Assembly (NCBI RefSeq): GCF_027922165.1
Contig: NZ_BSFD01000011.1
Span: 289,936 to 353,935 of the forward strand
DNA: 64,000 nt
From: Brevundimonas intermedia
Lineage (GTDB): Bacteria > Pseudomonadota > Alphaproteobacteria > Caulobacterales > Caulobacteraceae
Direction: 5' to 3'
Part shown: positions 17,902 to 23,718 of the stretch, piece by piece
Numbering within the stretch: position 1 is the first letter of the stretch
How the letters are laid out: every line of letters begins with the position of its first letter
Notes under the pieces: model-generated
The model's input: the letters and a program-made list of their open reading frames with translations, nothing else
Databases searched by the model: none
Told to the model about the DNA's origin: nothing
Made by a program: the position numbers and the translations under genes

Positions 17902-18112
17902 AATACAGCTCCAGCTCTTGGTTTCGGCCCCCGACCAAGGAGATGGGGAGGGGCGCCTAAGGCGCCAGTCTCGCGATCGGGGTGTCGTAGAAATTTCACG
18001 CCCCAATCGCTCCCACTGAAGGGCGTAATCCGCAGGCTGAGCGAATTGCCGATTGCGTCATGCGCGGCGGAGCGCCACCTTCGCCGCCAAGACAGATCAG
18101 ACGAGGATGCCG

Positions 18113-18253
18113 ATGGCCCGCAAACCCAACTATAGTTTCGAACGTCAGGAACGGGAGCGCGCGGCGGCCATCAAGGCGGCGGAGAAGGCGGCCGCCAAGG
18201 CCGAACGCAAGGCTGCCGAGGCGGCTGAAAAGGCGCCGTCCGACGAGGACTGA
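18113..18253 (+). CDS. Small basic Ala/Lys-rich protein
   Basis: A 46-residue protein beginning MARKPNYSFERQERER and continuing as an alanine-lysine-glutamate helix with an acidic SDED end. Very similar short proteins that start MARKPNY-FERQERER are widespread in alphaproteobacteria, but their role is unknown; the helix is highly charged and soluble. AGG at 18104-18106 is six bases before the chosen ATG. It lies 66 bases upstream of the DAHP synthase gene on the same strand. Confidence 0.6.
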   Translation: MARKPNYSFERQERERAAAIKAAEKAAAKAERKAAEAAEKAPSDED

Positions 18254-18319
18254 GGCTGAACGGCAAAATCTATTCGTGTTTTCGTTGTTTGAGCGGTCAC
18301 AAAGCCCTATTCTTGCGCG

Positions 18320-19690: not shown

Positions 19691-20876
19691 TCGGCGGGAA
19701 CAACGGGGCGACGAGGCCGATGGTCGCGTTCGCCTCGCCGCGGTCCGGCGTCTCGTCGTCGATGCCGACGCCGTTCATGTCGTTGCGCGTGGCCTGAACC
19801 ACGATTCCGTCCGGGCGCGACAGGACGGTCACGCCCCGGAAATGCAGGCCGTAGTTCGCCTCCGGCTGGGGCGCGAGCCAGGCGATCTGACCGCGCACCG
19901 GGATCAGCTCCTTGTCTTCGAACAAGGCCTTGGCTCCATAGCCGGTGCAGTTGACGACGACCTTTTCGGGCAAGGTCATCATATCCGCCGGCGTGTTGAA
20001 GGTGCGGGTCTCGATCCGCCCGCCATGGGCCAGGAACTCAGTCTCCAGCCGGTGCGCCAGTTCGGCGACGTTGAACTGCATGGCGCTGACCATCCGGGTC
20101 TCCCCGACCGGGAACGGCGAGGCTGAGGCGGGGAGGGGGAAGGATCGCGGCGCCAGCCCGTCCAGCCTGTATTCGGCGAAGCGGATCGGCTTCACGCCGG
20201 GGCCGGTGCGGATCGGCGGCGGCTCTAGCGAACGGGGCAGGTCCGCGCCGCCGGACAGCATGTAACGGTCGCTGAAGACGACGGGGTCGCCCTCTGTTCC
20301 TAGATAGGTCTGGTGGGTCGCATAGGTCTCGCGCGCCATCTGTTCCCACAGCGCCGGAAATTCGGCGGAGACGCGGTCGGCGTCGGCGATTCTGCTGTCC
20401 GGCGTCCAGCTACCGGTCGCACGCATCGACCGGGTAAAGGCGGCGCGTTCACGGGCATAGATGGTCACCCGCGCGCCCATCCGCTGAAGCTGGAGCGCCG
20501 AGGTCAGGCCCAGGGCGCCGCTGCCGATCACGGCGATGACAGGCGGCCCACCCGCCAGGCCGGCCAGAGCCATGGCCTTGCGCCCCGCTATGGCGCTGGA
20601 ACCCCACGACAGCGACCAGCCGCTGCCGCCATGGCCGTAGTTGTGCACCACCTTGGTCTCGCCGACCGATTCCACATCAAGGCGCGGCCCCGTGGCGCGG
20701 AAAGGACGGGTGCAGACGGTGATGCGGATGATCCGCTCGGGGGCCATCAAGATCGGCGCGATCCGGCGTGGGGCGAATCCCGTCACAGGCGTCGCCGGCG
20801 TCACGGCGCACCCCGCCACGGTTCCCGCCAGGCCGGTCAGGACCGCGCGACGGCTGGCGTTCGAGACAACGGACAT
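19668..20876 (-). CDS. D-amino-acid-oxidase-like FAD oxidoreductase, apparently circularly permuted
   Basis: A 402-residue flavoprotein with a Tat-like, lipobox-like N-terminus (SRRAVLTGL, Cys23 in VAGC). It has the Rossmann FAD motif GSGALG at 118-123 and [12 protein letters not shown] and VRGQIAWL later, as in the DAO family. Unusually, the segment that normally ends D-amino acid oxidases ([15 protein letters not shown], then [18 protein letters not shown]) lies at about residues 55-93, before the Rossmann motif instead of at the C-terminus. The protein then ends shortly after the substrate-domain strands. This suggests a natural circular permutation. The ATG at 20876 has GGAGG just upstream. 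The substrate is unknown; an exported D-amino acid oxidase-like role is plausible. Confidence 0.8.
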
Positions 20877-21080
20877 GGGGCCTCCGAAGGCGATGAGAAC
20901 AATCAGGCTAGCGCGACCACAGGCCGTTCGATAGCGGGCGCCCGTCACATTCGGCTTGTCGGAAAAGGAGCGGCGCCGCAGATACGCTTCGAAACGGTCA
21001 CGGCTCGGACAAGGACGTTCCGTCTGATCGGTCGAGAACGACAAGGAAGGCTTTCGGCCGAGACGCCGGAAGTGACGGAC

Positions 21081-21644
21081 ATGAACCAACCGCACCAAGA
21101 CGAAAAGCCCGGCCGGGTCGCCTATCAGGGCGCGCCGGGCGCGTTCAGCCATGAGGCCTGCGCCGTTCTGCGGCCCTGGGACACGGCTGTGCCGTTCGAG
21201 ACCTTTGCGGCGGCGCTCGATGCTTTGAGGACCGGCGATTGCGACTGCGCCCTGATCCCGGTCGAAAACTCCTCCATCGGGGTGGTGGAGCCGGCGGCGA
21301 CCCTGGTGCGCGAGTCGGGCCTCAAGGTGGTCGCCGAGGCCTGGCGGCCGATCCGACACGCGCTGATGGGCCTGGATGGAGCGCGGATCGCCGATCTGAA
21401 GCAGGTGCTCAGCCACCCCATCGCCCTGGCCCAGTGCGAGCAGACGCTGAAAGGCCTGAGGCTGAACGTCGTCGAGCATTTCGACACCGCCGGCGCCGCC
21501 CGCGACGTCGCCGAAGCGGGCGATCCGACCCAGGCGGCCATAGCGCCGGTGGGTGCGGCGGAGGTCTATGGCCTGTCGATCCTGCGCAACGATCTTCAGG
21601 ATTCCAGCGATAACCGGACGCGTTTCGTCTTGTTGTCCGCCTGA
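21081..21644 (+). CDS. pheA: Prephenate dehydratase catalytic domain, no ACT domain
   Basis: A 187-residue protein that would convert prephenate to phenylpyruvate in phenylalanine synthesis. It begins VAYQGAPGAFSHEA, contains ALIPVENSSIGVV, and ends in DNRTRFVLLS with the catalytic Thr-Arg-Phe. A usual bacterial enzyme is about 280 residues because an ACT domain for phenylalanine feedback follows TRF; here the stop comes five residues after it. No frameshifted ACT sequence is visible downstream. The enzyme may therefore be insensitive to phenylalanine. The start at 21081 is the first ATG before the conserved region; a long upstream frame overlapping the oxidoreductase was rejected. Confidence 0.88.
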   Translation: MNQPHQDEKPGRVAYQGAPGAFSHEACAVLRPWDTAVPFETFAAALDALRTGDCDCALIPVENSSIGVVEPAATLVRESGLKVVAEAWRPIRHALMGLDGARIADLKQVLSHPIALAQCEQTLKGLRLNVVEHFDTAGAARDVAEAGDPTQAAIAPVGAAEVYGLSILRNDLQDSSDNRTRFVLLSA

Positions 21645-21649
21645 AGGGG

Positions 21650-21678
21650 TTGACGGCGCACGGTCATTGCGTGCTTTA
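21650..21678 (+). promoter_or_regulatory. Promoter for the leader peptide/chorismate mutase unit
   Basis: TTGACG at 21650-21655 and GCTTTA at 21673-21678, spaced by 17 bases, match the Caulobacter housekeeping promoter form (TTGAC and GCTANA). Transcription would start near 21685, just at a 7-bp hairpin (CGGATCG / CGATCCG, 21687-21704), about 40 bases before the leader ATG. Confidence 0.6.
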
Positions 21679-21723
21679 AGGCCCCACGGATCGCAATCGA
21701 TCCGCATAACCGGACCCGGACCC

Positions 21724-21825
21724 ATGTCCCGCCAGCGCGTTCTTTCTGTTTCTTTCGACCGTTCGCGCGCGGTTTCCGGCCTCTATTTCGGCTACGGCTT
21801 TTACGGCTTTCGATACGCCGGCTGA
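21724..21825 (+). CDS. Phe/Tyr-rich leader peptide upstream of chorismate mutase
   Basis: A 33-codon ORF whose last third is strongly enriched in aromatic codons: residues 21-31 contain four Tyr (21, 24, 27, 31) and three Phe (22, 26, 29), with a fourth Phe at 11. It lies between a good promoter and the chorismate mutase gene, which commits chorismate to Phe and Tyr. This is the classic arrangement of an attenuation leader, in which the ribosome stalls when Phe- or Tyr-tRNA is scarce. There is no strong Shine-Dalgarno (GGACCCGGACCC precedes the ATG). The peptide itself need have no function. A chance ORF is possible, but the codon content and position argue against it. Confidence 0.6.
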   Translation: MSRQRVLSVSFDRSRAVSGLYFGYGFYGFRYAG

Positions 21826-21933
21826 GGCGTCGGGCGCTTTCCGTCCCTGACTGTCTCGCCGGCGACCGCTCTGGACCAGAGCGGCTGTCCGCCCCTGCAC
21901 ATCGAAATCCCCCTTTGCCGAAAGCCTAATCCC
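21826..21933 (+). promoter_or_regulatory. Candidate attenuator RNA before chorismate mutase
   Basis: The 108 bases after the leader stop contain a perfect 8-bp hairpin at 21866-21884 (CCGCTCTG-GAC-CAGAGCGG) without a T-run. CGAAAGCC at 21919-21926, in the translation initiation region of the chorismate mutase ATG (21934), is the exact complement of GGCTTTCG at 21805-21812, which is leader codons 28-30. A ribosome stalled on the aromatic codons would cover the upstream half and free the initiation region. Translational control by this pairing is an inference; a transcriptional terminator is less supported because no T-tract is seen. Confidence 0.45.
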
Positions 21934-22692
21934 ATGCCCAATTCCAACGTCCAGAAAGTGTGGCCTGACGTGGCCGAACTGACCCCCGAACAACAGGCCC
22001 TGGCCGCCCTGCGCGCCGAGATCGACGCCATAGACGATCAGATCCTGGCCCTGTTCGAGCAACGCCTCGCCGTCGCCGCCACCGTCGGCCGCGCCAAGGA
22101 CGCCCCCACCGGCCCCCACACCAAGCTGCGCCCCGACCGCGAACAGACGGTCCTCTCGCGCATGCTGTCCAAGGCCCAACCCGAGAACGCCGAAGCCGTT
22201 GAACACCTGTGGCGCGAGATCGTCGGCTGGGGCCTAGCGCGCCAAGGGCGGCTCCAGGTCCAGGTCTGGGCGCCGATCGAACCGACCCGGGCCTATGACG
22301 GCGCCCGCCTGCGCTTCGGCGCCGCCGCTGATATCAAGATGGTGCGAGACCCGCAAAAGGCCCTGGCCTTCGCGGCCGAGGGGCACGGCGTCGCCGTCCT
22401 GGCCATCAACACCGAGGACGCTTGGTGGATGGGCCTGCGTCGCGAATGGTCGATGTTGAGCGTGTTCGACGGTTACGGCGGCGAGACGCCGACGTCTCTC
22501 GCCGTGGGCAAGATCGATCCGCCCGCCCTGCCGACGGGCCGCCGCGTCGTGGTGACGGCCGGCGGGGACGCCGGCGACGGCGGCGGCGCGCGGCGCTGGG
22601 GCCTGAACACCCACCACGGCTGGACCATCGCCCTGACCGAGGCGGAATTGACCCCCGGCGAGGCGGAAGGCTGCGTCGGGGCGATCGGCTGA
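21934..22692 (+). CDS. Chorismate mutase (AroQ type) with extra C-terminal domain
   Basis: A 252-residue protein. Residues about 18-100 are an AroQ chorismate mutase domain (LAALRAEIDAIDDQILALFEQR, VGRAK, RPDREQTVLSRM), which rearranges chorismate to prephenate. Residues about 105-252 form a further domain with no family I recognise (VQVWAPIEPTRAYDG, DAWWMGLRREWSMLS, GLNTHHGWTIALTE); it could be a regulatory or ligand-binding region. Prephenate then feeds the dehydratase encoded upstream. The initiation region has no strong Shine-Dalgarno and may be masked by pairing with the leader. It is convergent with the SDR gene. Confidence 0.85.
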   Translation: MPNSNVQKVWPDVAELTPEQQALAALRAEIDAIDDQILALFEQRLAVAATVGRAKDAPTGPHTKLRPDREQTVLSRMLSKAQPENAEAVEHLWREIVGWGLARQGRLQVQVWAPIEPTRAYDGARLRFGAAADIKMVRDPQKALAFAAEGHGVAVLAINTEDAWWMGLRREWSMLSVFDGYGGETPTSLAVGKIDPPALPTGRRVVVTAGGDAGDGGGARRWGLNTHHGWTIALTEAELTPGEAEGCVGAIG

Positions 22693-22711
22693 CCGCGCCG
22701 ACGGTTTTCGA

Positions 22712-23620
22712 TCAGGAGGCGTGAGCCTTCTGAGCCTTCGTCAGTTCGATCATCCCCTGGGCGGCGCCCATCTCCGGCACGATTTCTTTTGCCCGGTCGG
22801 AGATGGCGTCGAACTGGGCCGCCACCTGTTCCGGCGCATCCTCGCCCGAGATGTGGACGCCTTCGGTCAAGGTGACATAGGCGCGTTCGAACCCGCCGGC
22901 GCCCGCCGCCAGGATACAGCGGCTGGGCGCGTCACGGCTCAGCAGATACAGCAGGCCCGGCGTCACCAGTTCCGGCGCCAGAGCCTCCAGCGGCAAGGCT
23001 GCGCCCAGGTCTTCCGTCATGCGCGTATGGGCGGTCGGGGCCAGGCAGTTGACGCGGATGTCGTTCTTGCCCCCTTCGATCGCCAAGGTCTGCATCAGGC
23101 CCACCAGGGCCATCTTGGCTGCGCCATAGTTCGACTGGCCGAAGTTTCCGTACAGGCCCGAGGACGAGGTGGTCATGACGATCCGGCCGTAGTTCTGGCC
23201 CCGCATGATCTCCCACACCGCCTTGGTGCAGTTGACCGCGCCCATCAGGTGCACATCGACGACGAAGCGGAAATCCTCGATCTCCATCTTGGCGAAGGTG
23301 CGATCGCGCAGCACTCCGGCGTTGTTCACCAGCAGGTCGACCCGGCCCCATTTCGCCATGGCCGCATCGACCATGGCCTGGACGGCGACGAAGTCGGTCA
23401 CCGAGGCCGCATTGGCCATGGCCTCTCCGCCCGCCGCCTCGATCTCGGCTACGACGGCCTCGGCGGCGGTTGCGGAACCGCCTGAACCGTCGCGGGCGCC
23501 GCCCAGATCATTGACCACCACCTTGGCCCCGCGCGCCGCCAGGGACAGCGCATGCTCCCGCCCCAGACCGCCGCCCGCGCCCGTCACAATGGCCACCTGA
23601 CCGTCAAACCGGATCGTCAT
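22712..23620 (-). CDS. SDR oxidoreductase, 3-hydroxyacyl-CoA dehydrogenase type
   Basis: Short-chain dehydrogenase of 302 residues like the dehydrogenase domain of peroxisomal multifunctional enzyme 2: NAD(H) motif TGAGGGLG (13-20), NDLGG, NNAGVLRD, and the active-site Ser and Tyr-x-x-x-Lys in TSSSGLYGNFGQSNYGAAK. A C-terminal extension of about 60 residues follows the core fold. It would oxidise (3R)-hydroxyacyl-CoA or a similar substrate in the cytosol. The ATG at 23620 starts the conserved MTIRFDGQVA; a start at 23638 would add six residues. It is 98 bases downstream of acs on the same strand and may be its last operon partner. Confidence 0.85.
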   Translation of the reverse strand: MTIRFDGQVAIVTGAGGGLGREHALSLAARGAKVVVNDLGGARDGSGGSATAAEAVVAEIEAAGGEAMANAASVTDFVAVQAMVDAAMAKWGRVDLLVNNAGVLRDRTFAKMEIEDFRFVVDVHLMGAVNCTKAVWEIMRGQNYGRIVMTTSSSGLYGNFGQSNYGAAKMALVGLMQTLAIEGGKNDIRVNCLAPTAHTRMTEDLGAALPLEALAPELVTPGLLYLLSRDAPSRCILAAGAGGFERAYVTLTEGVHISGEDAPEQVAAQFDAISDRAKEIVPEMGAAQGMIELTKAQKAHAS

Positions 23621-23718
23621 CTCGTCGTCTCCACCCAAGGACTGAGGCCTACGGCTTCACGGCCGGCCCCTTCATCCGGTTTTGACGAGGCTCGAGGCGG
23701 CGCACAAGTCGGTCCTGA

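Follow-up and report, generated by a model that had tools for sequence, protein, structure and literature searches.

A conserved Phe/Tyr-rich leader ORF before the chorismate mutase gene of Brevundimonas as a putative translational attenuator

The chorismate mutase gene of Brevundimonas intermedia is preceded by a short ORF rich in Phe and Tyr codons, the last of which can pair with the sequence immediately ahead of the chorismate mutase start codon. We put the probability at roughly three in four that this arrangement is a ribosome-mediated translational attenuator sensing charged tRNA-Phe and tRNA-Tyr. An original prediction, made from the letters alone, had interpreted the region as a Phe/Tyr leader, perhaps with a translational output, and the conservation of both ORF and pairing now supports that interpretation. 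Coordinates below are those of the window, the whole stretch of 64,000 nucleotides that was analysed. The features of the locus are as follows.

21081..21644, + strand: prephenate dehydratase gene, catalytic domain only, without ACT domain (Pfam PDT, 3.9e-48)
21650..21678, + strand: putative promoter TTGACG-17-GCTTTA for leader and chorismate mutase (sequence)
21724..21825, + strand: leader peptide ORF, 33 codons plus TGA (conserved in-frame ATG, codon test)
21784..21816, + strand: Phe/Tyr stretch, leader codons 21-31, putative control codons (codon test, conservation counts)
21805..21814, + strand: 5' arm of helix P1, GGCTTTCGAT, codons 28-31, pairing with the region before the chorismate mutase start (folding, pair counts, duplex energy)
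21816..21864, + strand: hairpin P2, its 5' arm formed by the leader's last codons and stop, with the U of UGA bulged (folding, pair counts)
21866..21884, + strand: hairpin P3, CCGCTCTG/CAGAGCGG (folding, pair counts)
21901..21907, + strand: 3' arm of P1, first copy, ATCGAAA (97.3% of cells paired, 43 rows)
21919..21926, + strand: 3' arm of P1, second copy, CGAAAGCC, containing GAAAG (pairing test)
21934..22692, + strand: chorismate mutase gene, type II, the putative controlled gene (Pfam CM_2, 5.7e-17)

The leader ORF and its setting

With prephenate dehydratase upstream and chorismate mutase downstream, the leader is set in the Phe/Tyr branch. The prephenate dehydratase gene ends 5 bases upstream of the putative promoter, whose hexamers (TTGACG at 21650-21655, GCTTTA at 21673-21678, 17 bases apart) read as originally described. 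All 91 distinct relatives also carry TTGAC no more than 110 bases ahead of the leader ATG. A promoter scan of 20800-22800 with the E. coli consensus returned 0 sites, and so missed this candidate. In two relatives (loci L058 and L076) only 6-7 bases separate the end of a -10-like hexamer from the leader ATG, and the ORF may be translated from a leaderless mRNA there. The next long gene-like frame after chorismate mutase is on the opposite strand (22712-23638), and the gene thus apparently stands alone. The C-terminal ~150 residues of its product (22243-22689) match no Pfam family at 0.01, and NCBIfam ties the protein, below cut-off, to PRK06034 'hypothetical protein' models. The scan of the window found no leader before the DAHP synthase gene (18320); a short ORF upstream of that gene, at about 18100-18260 (MARKPNYSFERQERERAAAIKAAEKAAAK...), is rich in Ala and Lys and, by eye, not in aromatic residues.

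The leader ORF runs from an ATG at 21724 to a TGA at 21823-21825, and direct reading bears out its 33 codons with seven aromatic ones among the eleven of codons 21-31 (YFGYGFYGFRY). Such richness exceeds chance: only two ORFs in the whole 64 kb have at least 6 Phe, Tyr or Trp in 11 codons, namely the leader ORF (taken by the scan from its first possible start, as 90 codons) and one ORF of 556 codons, and in 20 mononucleotide shuffles such ORFs averaged 0.1, none of them reaching 7.

Comparison with relatives began from 143 loci, 138 of which carry the motif; removal of copies left 91 distinct sequences spanning Brevundimonas and three related genera. The five loci without the motif are L090, L095 and L096, which lie at contig ends, L140 of genome G037, and L143. 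As the leader rows are kin, the conservation counts are counts of non-independent events. The original prediction had proposed looking in relatives for a conserved aromatic ORF, and its start is kept throughout: an in-frame ATG lies 18-31 codons before the peptide motif FRYAG in 91 of 91 distinct sequences, and an ATG in either alternative frame of that interval occurs in 2 and 4. In the 57 leaders that share one length, evolution is neutral over codons 1-19 (pN/pS = 0.95), and codons 20-26 have a pN/pS of 0.41 in the leader frame against 1.86 and 0.85 in the others. The 12 codons preceding FRYAG hold on average 4.9 Phe and Tyr, compared with 1.0 in shuffles, and neither Trp nor His occurs there in any of the 91 sequences. 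Phe and Tyr replace each other between relatives (codon 26 is Phe in 44 and Tyr in 13), and aromatic codons are retained, counted from the Phe of FRYAG, at position -3 in 84, at -2 in 85, at 0 in 91 and at +2 in 87 of the 91. The persistence of Phe/Tyr codons while the first 19 codons drift neutrally marks the ORF as a leader peptide, the translation of which is predicted.

Pairing between the leader end and the chorismate mutase start

The octamer GGCTTTCG (codons 28-30, 21805-21812) is the exact complement of CGAAAGCC (21919-21926), just as had been pointed out; the second pairing element, ATCGAAA, and the intervening hairpins P2 and P3 had been overlooked. CGAAAGCC ends 7 bases upstream of the chorismate mutase ATG (21934) and includes GAAAG, a Shine-Dalgarno-like motif 9 bases upstream of that ATG, which we take to fit the extreme 3' tail of 16S rRNA and infer to be the Shine-Dalgarno site of the gene. 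A script recognised a GAAAG-like motif in 82 of 90 rows, its first base lying 8-19 nucleotides ahead of the start codon. The leader end, TTTCGA.ACGCCGGC, is almost invariant, silent sites included, and the same is true of the leader's 3' end as a whole (GGC TTT CGA TAC GCC GGC TGA GGC). Selection on the peptide alone is insufficient to explain fixed silent sites, which suggests that the end of the leader doubles as RNA.

P2 and P3 were present in the folds of 19 representatives, and P1-type pairing was present in most of them (the piece from L087 stops before the 3' arm). Over 43 rows, 97.3% of cells are paired in P1 (TTTCGAT with ATCGAAA), 92.7% in P2 and 94.6% in P3, and sliding the partner by 1-3 columns lowers the total from 94.1% to 33-50%. 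In 86 of 90 rows the 12-base leader end can form an uninterrupted run of at least 7 pairs with the pre-start region; the corresponding figures are 4.7% for shuffles, 9 of 90 for chorismate mutase coding DNA and 0 of 90 for upstream DNA. The predicted pairing is therefore widely conserved, but not in genus g3 (loci L135 and L143), which lacks the P1 pairing to the start region. Duplex energy lies more than 2 standard deviations below that of a row's own shuffles in 66 of 90 rows and does not in the other 24.

Covariation is modest because the letters hardly vary. Double-changed pairs numbered 2 in the 43-row count (shuffled mean 2.0) and 6 in a second count, where the shuffled mean was 3.7, 32 of 500 shuffles reached as many and slid controls gave up to 8. 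Double-changed cells exceeded all 500 shuffles in both counts, although in the second their number, 14, compares with up to 15 in slid controls. Clear individual cases, identified by eye, are L083, which alters both arms of P1 (GAGTTTCG with TGAAACTC) and keeps the pairing while a Gly codon becomes Glu, and L128, which rebuilds P2 through a compensated change (AAGGTGATCG with CGATCACCT). The unpaired bases at the junctions (an A on each side of P2, towards P1 and towards P3, and the C after P3) are invariant or almost so.

We masked a ribosome footprint at chosen codons and computed the energy needed to open the chorismate mutase start region in 90 rows. The mean cost was 9.4 kcal/mol without a ribosome and 9.1-9.7 kcal/mol with one far upstream. 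It fell partially, to 7.4-8.4 kcal/mol, with the ribosome 8 to 5 codons ahead of the Phe in FRYAG (-8 to -5), and to 4.6-5.6 kcal/mol with the A-site at -4 to 0; a ribosome at the stop codon left the start site open too (5.9 kcal/mol). A ribosome resident on about the last ten codons is thus calculated to free the start region, with an opening cost down by some 40% (9.4 to 5.4 kcal/mol). The cost was lower at -3, -2, 0 and +2 in 85 of 90 rows, with a drop of more than 2 kcal/mol in 72, and a far-upstream ribosome gave such a drop in 1 of 90. In the window's own sequence the cost went from 9.6 to 3.0-4.8 kcal/mol. A cruder measure, the unpaired probability of GAAAG, rose in 63 of 82 rows (the 8 rows without a recognised GAAAG-like site being excluded) and went down in the window's own sequence and in several of its close relatives (by 0.15 in L001). 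The most widely kept aromatic codons (-3, -2, 0 and +2) are those at which a halted ribosome is calculated to open the site, and this coincidence, together with the opening energies, favours translational attenuation.

We suggest that, with Phe and Tyr in ample supply, the ribosome would pass quickly along the leader, terminate at UGA and leave, whereupon P1 would close and little chorismate mutase would be translated. When Phe or Tyr is scarce, ribosomes would dwell on the aromatic codons and P1 would stay open, allowing chorismate mutase to be made, the product of which, prephenate, feeds both Phe and Tyr. A terminating ribosome is calculated to hold the site open as well, so repression would need quick release. 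P2 coincides with the stop codon, where it probably delays the ribosome, and it probably brings the arms of P1 together.

Distribution of the leader and loss of the ACT domain

Most named matches to the window are from Brevundimonas, and a chorismate mutase match was obtained in 126 of 131 genomes of the genus. A covariance model built from the 43 rows (R1) detected the element in 77 of the 299 family genomes searched, once in each; 72 of these belong to the genus and 5 to g3, g9 and g10, and the single listed miss within the genus is G037. The filters of the R1 search lose weak matches, and the reach of R1 and of a further model, R2, cannot be taken as complete: L143 and the leader of genus g17 escaped the models and were recovered by reading ORFs upstream of chorismate mutase. 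That reading added one g3 genome (G132, with L143) and both g17 genomes. No such leader was seen in the ~450-650 bases upstream of chorismate mutase in 51 genomes from 16 other genera of the family. These 51 are 37 of 40 stretches read first, the excluded three being G132 and the two g17 genomes, and all 14 read later; in four of the 51 an unrelated frame was printed (L152, L155, L161 and L273). The original prediction had framed the leader at the level of Caulobacterales. It holds for Brevundimonas and its allies, and the order is too wide a scope given these leader-negative genera.

A wider spread was considered and rejected. Run over 348 genomes of the order and 385 of the class, R2 produced 15 and 14 weak matches, respectively, outside the genus (E 2.3e-5 to 0.009), many of them, by eye, within genes; none of the 20 of these 29 that were inspected has a short aromatic-rich leader ORF, and we therefore take the weak matches as chance. 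The 24-base element has no second copy in its own genome at up to 3 mismatches, and no plasmid copies were found.

Two genera depart from the common form. In g3, an outlying lineage (L135, L143), the stop codon at the usual place is gone and the leader ORF extends six codons beyond FRYAG, and L135 has a run of T6 after P3. As P1 is also absent, the output of the leader may differ there from a translational switch. In g17 a strongly diverged leader (VYYGYR..., in full MRDALNLPSVSIPTTR(V/L)YYGYRSSAQFSGRQG) lies behind TTGACA and has prephenate dehydratase on one side and a second, short chorismate mutase gene on the other, with GCGCGAAAGCCCGTTCC upstream of the chorismate mutase ATG. By eye, GGCTATCG of the g17 leader matches the CGAAAGCC found before the ATG at 7 of 8 bases; the hairpins differ from P2 and P3, and the covariance models found nothing in genome G146 and only weak matches elsewhere in G159. 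Both g17 genomes have two chorismate mutase genes, the short one (L236, L237) being that behind prephenate dehydratase and the leader, and the frame upstream of the longer one (L156, L157) is DAHP synthase-like.

The prephenate dehydratase of the window, at 187 aa, covers positions 4-181 of a 283-position NCBIfam model. In g1, g9 and g10, G037 included, the gene ends 0-3 residues past the catalytic domain at 17 of 17 loci. In a later reading it ends 0 residues past that domain in both g17 genomes and 3 residues past it in G167 of g10, where the alignment crosses one stop codon; the gene of G155 runs off its contig. Among 88 leader-bearing stretches that contain the gene end (87 of the 91, and L143), 0-5 residues follow, g3 included. 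All five leader genera (g1, g3, g9, g10 and g17) accordingly have an ACT-less prephenate dehydratase. Fifteen other genera have 98-107 extra residues in 27 of 27 genomes (13 and 14), and no leader was found in these ACT-bearing genera, the genome not always being the same as in the ACT reading; genera g16 and g18 lie outside the comparison. The one C-terminal tail tested has its counterparts in the ACT region of prephenate dehydratase structures (6vh5, 1.6e-36) and in the C-terminal part of NCBIfam PRK11899, and the remaining tails are called ACT by their likeness to it. Pfam at 0.01 left ACT unrecognised in two tails. A search for an ACT domain elsewhere in the B. intermedia genome had a best E of 0.22, and the genome gave one prephenate dehydratase match.

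In a tree of 47 dehydratases, with a midpoint root and several long branches, the 20 ACT-less rows fall on one side of a branch that is supported at 97/95 and recurs in 99% of 200 bootstrap replicates; before g17 was added, a tree of 32 rows made the same split at 87/66. A single transition on the gene tree means that loss of ACT and gain of the leader count as one event and not as a repeated correlation. The coincidence of the two is suggestive of traded feedback, though short of proof, and finding them together in g17 strengthens this reading. We propose, at somewhat less than even odds, that an ancestor shared by Brevundimonas and its allies lost the Phe-binding ACT domain from its sole prephenate dehydratase, and that allosteric feedback was replaced by a dual Phe/Tyr leader throttling the translation of chorismate mutase, the enzyme one step earlier in the pathway. 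Against a simple pairing of the two traits, G037 is ACT-less and has no leader; yet it also has no proper chorismate mutase match. In G037 (L140, L217) that match is weak and partial, and the genome has a second prephenate dehydratase match, 31% identical. The leader-mutase unit is also found apart from the dehydratase, by 12 kb in G138 (g9) and on another contig in G139 (g10).

Alternative readings and known systems

An attenuator of the trp/phe type was rejected, since the same scan of 20800-22800 gave 0 terminator-like sites; the relatives, scanned for TTTT only, have it between P3 and the start in 12 of 90. The guess that translation is the output fits both this absence and the calculated opening of the start site. 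The same leader could instead act on transcription if Rho terminated on the 108 untranslated bases between the leader stop and the chorismate mutase ATG (21826-21933) whenever ribosomes were not stalled. The length of that spacer and the failure to find an intrinsic terminator are both compatible with such an output, and Rho has been proposed for other terminator-less leaders in the report on the LEU element (PMC1262725). We nevertheless regard it as unlikely, for it leaves unexplained the pairing, seen in 86 of 90 rows, between leader codons and the sequence immediately ahead of the start codon. That the three-helix RNA might itself sense a small molecule (Phe, Tyr or prephenate) or a protein, the ORF merely overlapping it, would suit a fold resembling a base-stem riboswitch and the nearly fixed junction bases, reportedly not a property of the LEU element. 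Most of the aromatic codons, however, lie outside the RNA core and are kept as amino acids, along with frame and start codon, and there is no Rfam match, so we think such a sensor quite improbable.

FRYAG is almost invariant and stands at the stop codon in most rows, which calls to mind TnaC, a nascent peptide that halts the ribosome in response to Trp. By this analogy, a chain ending in FRYAG could halt the ribosome upon binding a ligand. Its codons are constrained as RNA, silent sites too, and conservation of the peptide therefore proves little; moreover, the variants FRRAG and FRHAG and the extended FRYAGEAVVRG and FRYAGAAIVRG exist, and the g17 leader has a different end. An arrest peptide would accordingly be a very improbable explanation. 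It is scarcely credible, finally, that the region is a conserved but unregulated feature, be it an ORF that arose by chance across a structured 5' region or a gene for some unrelated small protein: the N-terminal half is indeed neutral, but frame, start and aromatic codons are jointly conserved at a site that matches the pathway.

Should translational attenuation by charged tRNA-Phe and tRNA-Tyr be confirmed, the locus would be a clean case of amino-acid attenuation acting on translation, with the start site downstream masked by the very codons that exert control, and would show a single leader responding to two amino acids at the precursor they share. The locus would also offer a testable instance, in one bacterial family, of allosteric feedback swapped for feedback at the RNA level. 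None of 4227 Rfam families, the Phe leader included, matched at curated threshold, and a permissive scan of 21600-22000 returned only NEAT1 (E 1.9, other strand); if so confirmed, the element would constitute a new family of the Rfam type.

In E. coli and its relatives, the pheL/pheA attenuator combines a Phe-rich leader peptide with an intrinsic terminator, and E. coli pheA fuses chorismate mutase activity with prephenate dehydratase. The logic is the same as here, a leader before chorismate mutase activity, but pheL differs in its terminator and in using Phe codons only. In translational attenuators of the ermC type, a ribosome halted in the leader ORF frees a masked start site, as proposed here; halting there depends on drug and peptide, and here would depend on a missing aminoacyl-tRNA. 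Closer in phylogeny, ribosome profiling of Caulobacter crescentus detected leader coding sequences for ilv and trpS (PMC4117421). These belong to the same family of bacteria and precede other genes, ilvBN with a rho-independent terminator, and the words chorismate, phenylalanine and aromatic are absent from the main text of that report. Titles and the openings of abstracts, in a sample where subscription papers are thinly covered, name no such leader before chorismate mutase in Caulobacteraceae.

The nearest design is that of the LEU element upstream of leuA in Actinobacteria, as far as it is set out in the text available (PMC1262725). It likewise has a leader ORF with a run of product codons, these codons pair with a Shine-Dalgarno box (as they do in 86 of 90 rows here, if GAAAG is that site), and no terminator is described for it, just as none was found in our stretch. 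The LEU element concerns Leu and leuA in Actinobacteria, and ours Phe/Tyr and chorismate mutase in Caulobacteraceae; a pseudoknot is described for it where we find hairpins P2 and P3, only nested folds having been computed, and reportedly lacks conserved unpaired bases, in contrast to our almost invariant junctions. Its authors cite mutations of Leu codons without effect on control and prefer a binding protein. The Brevundimonas leader, if it works as proposed, would thus give independent support to a design doubted as a leader-peptide device by those who described it. Since it shares the LEU design with another amino acid, gene and phylum, and the logic of pheL except for the terminator, we file it as a variant of the amino-acid leader that is a member of neither the LEU nor the pheL family.
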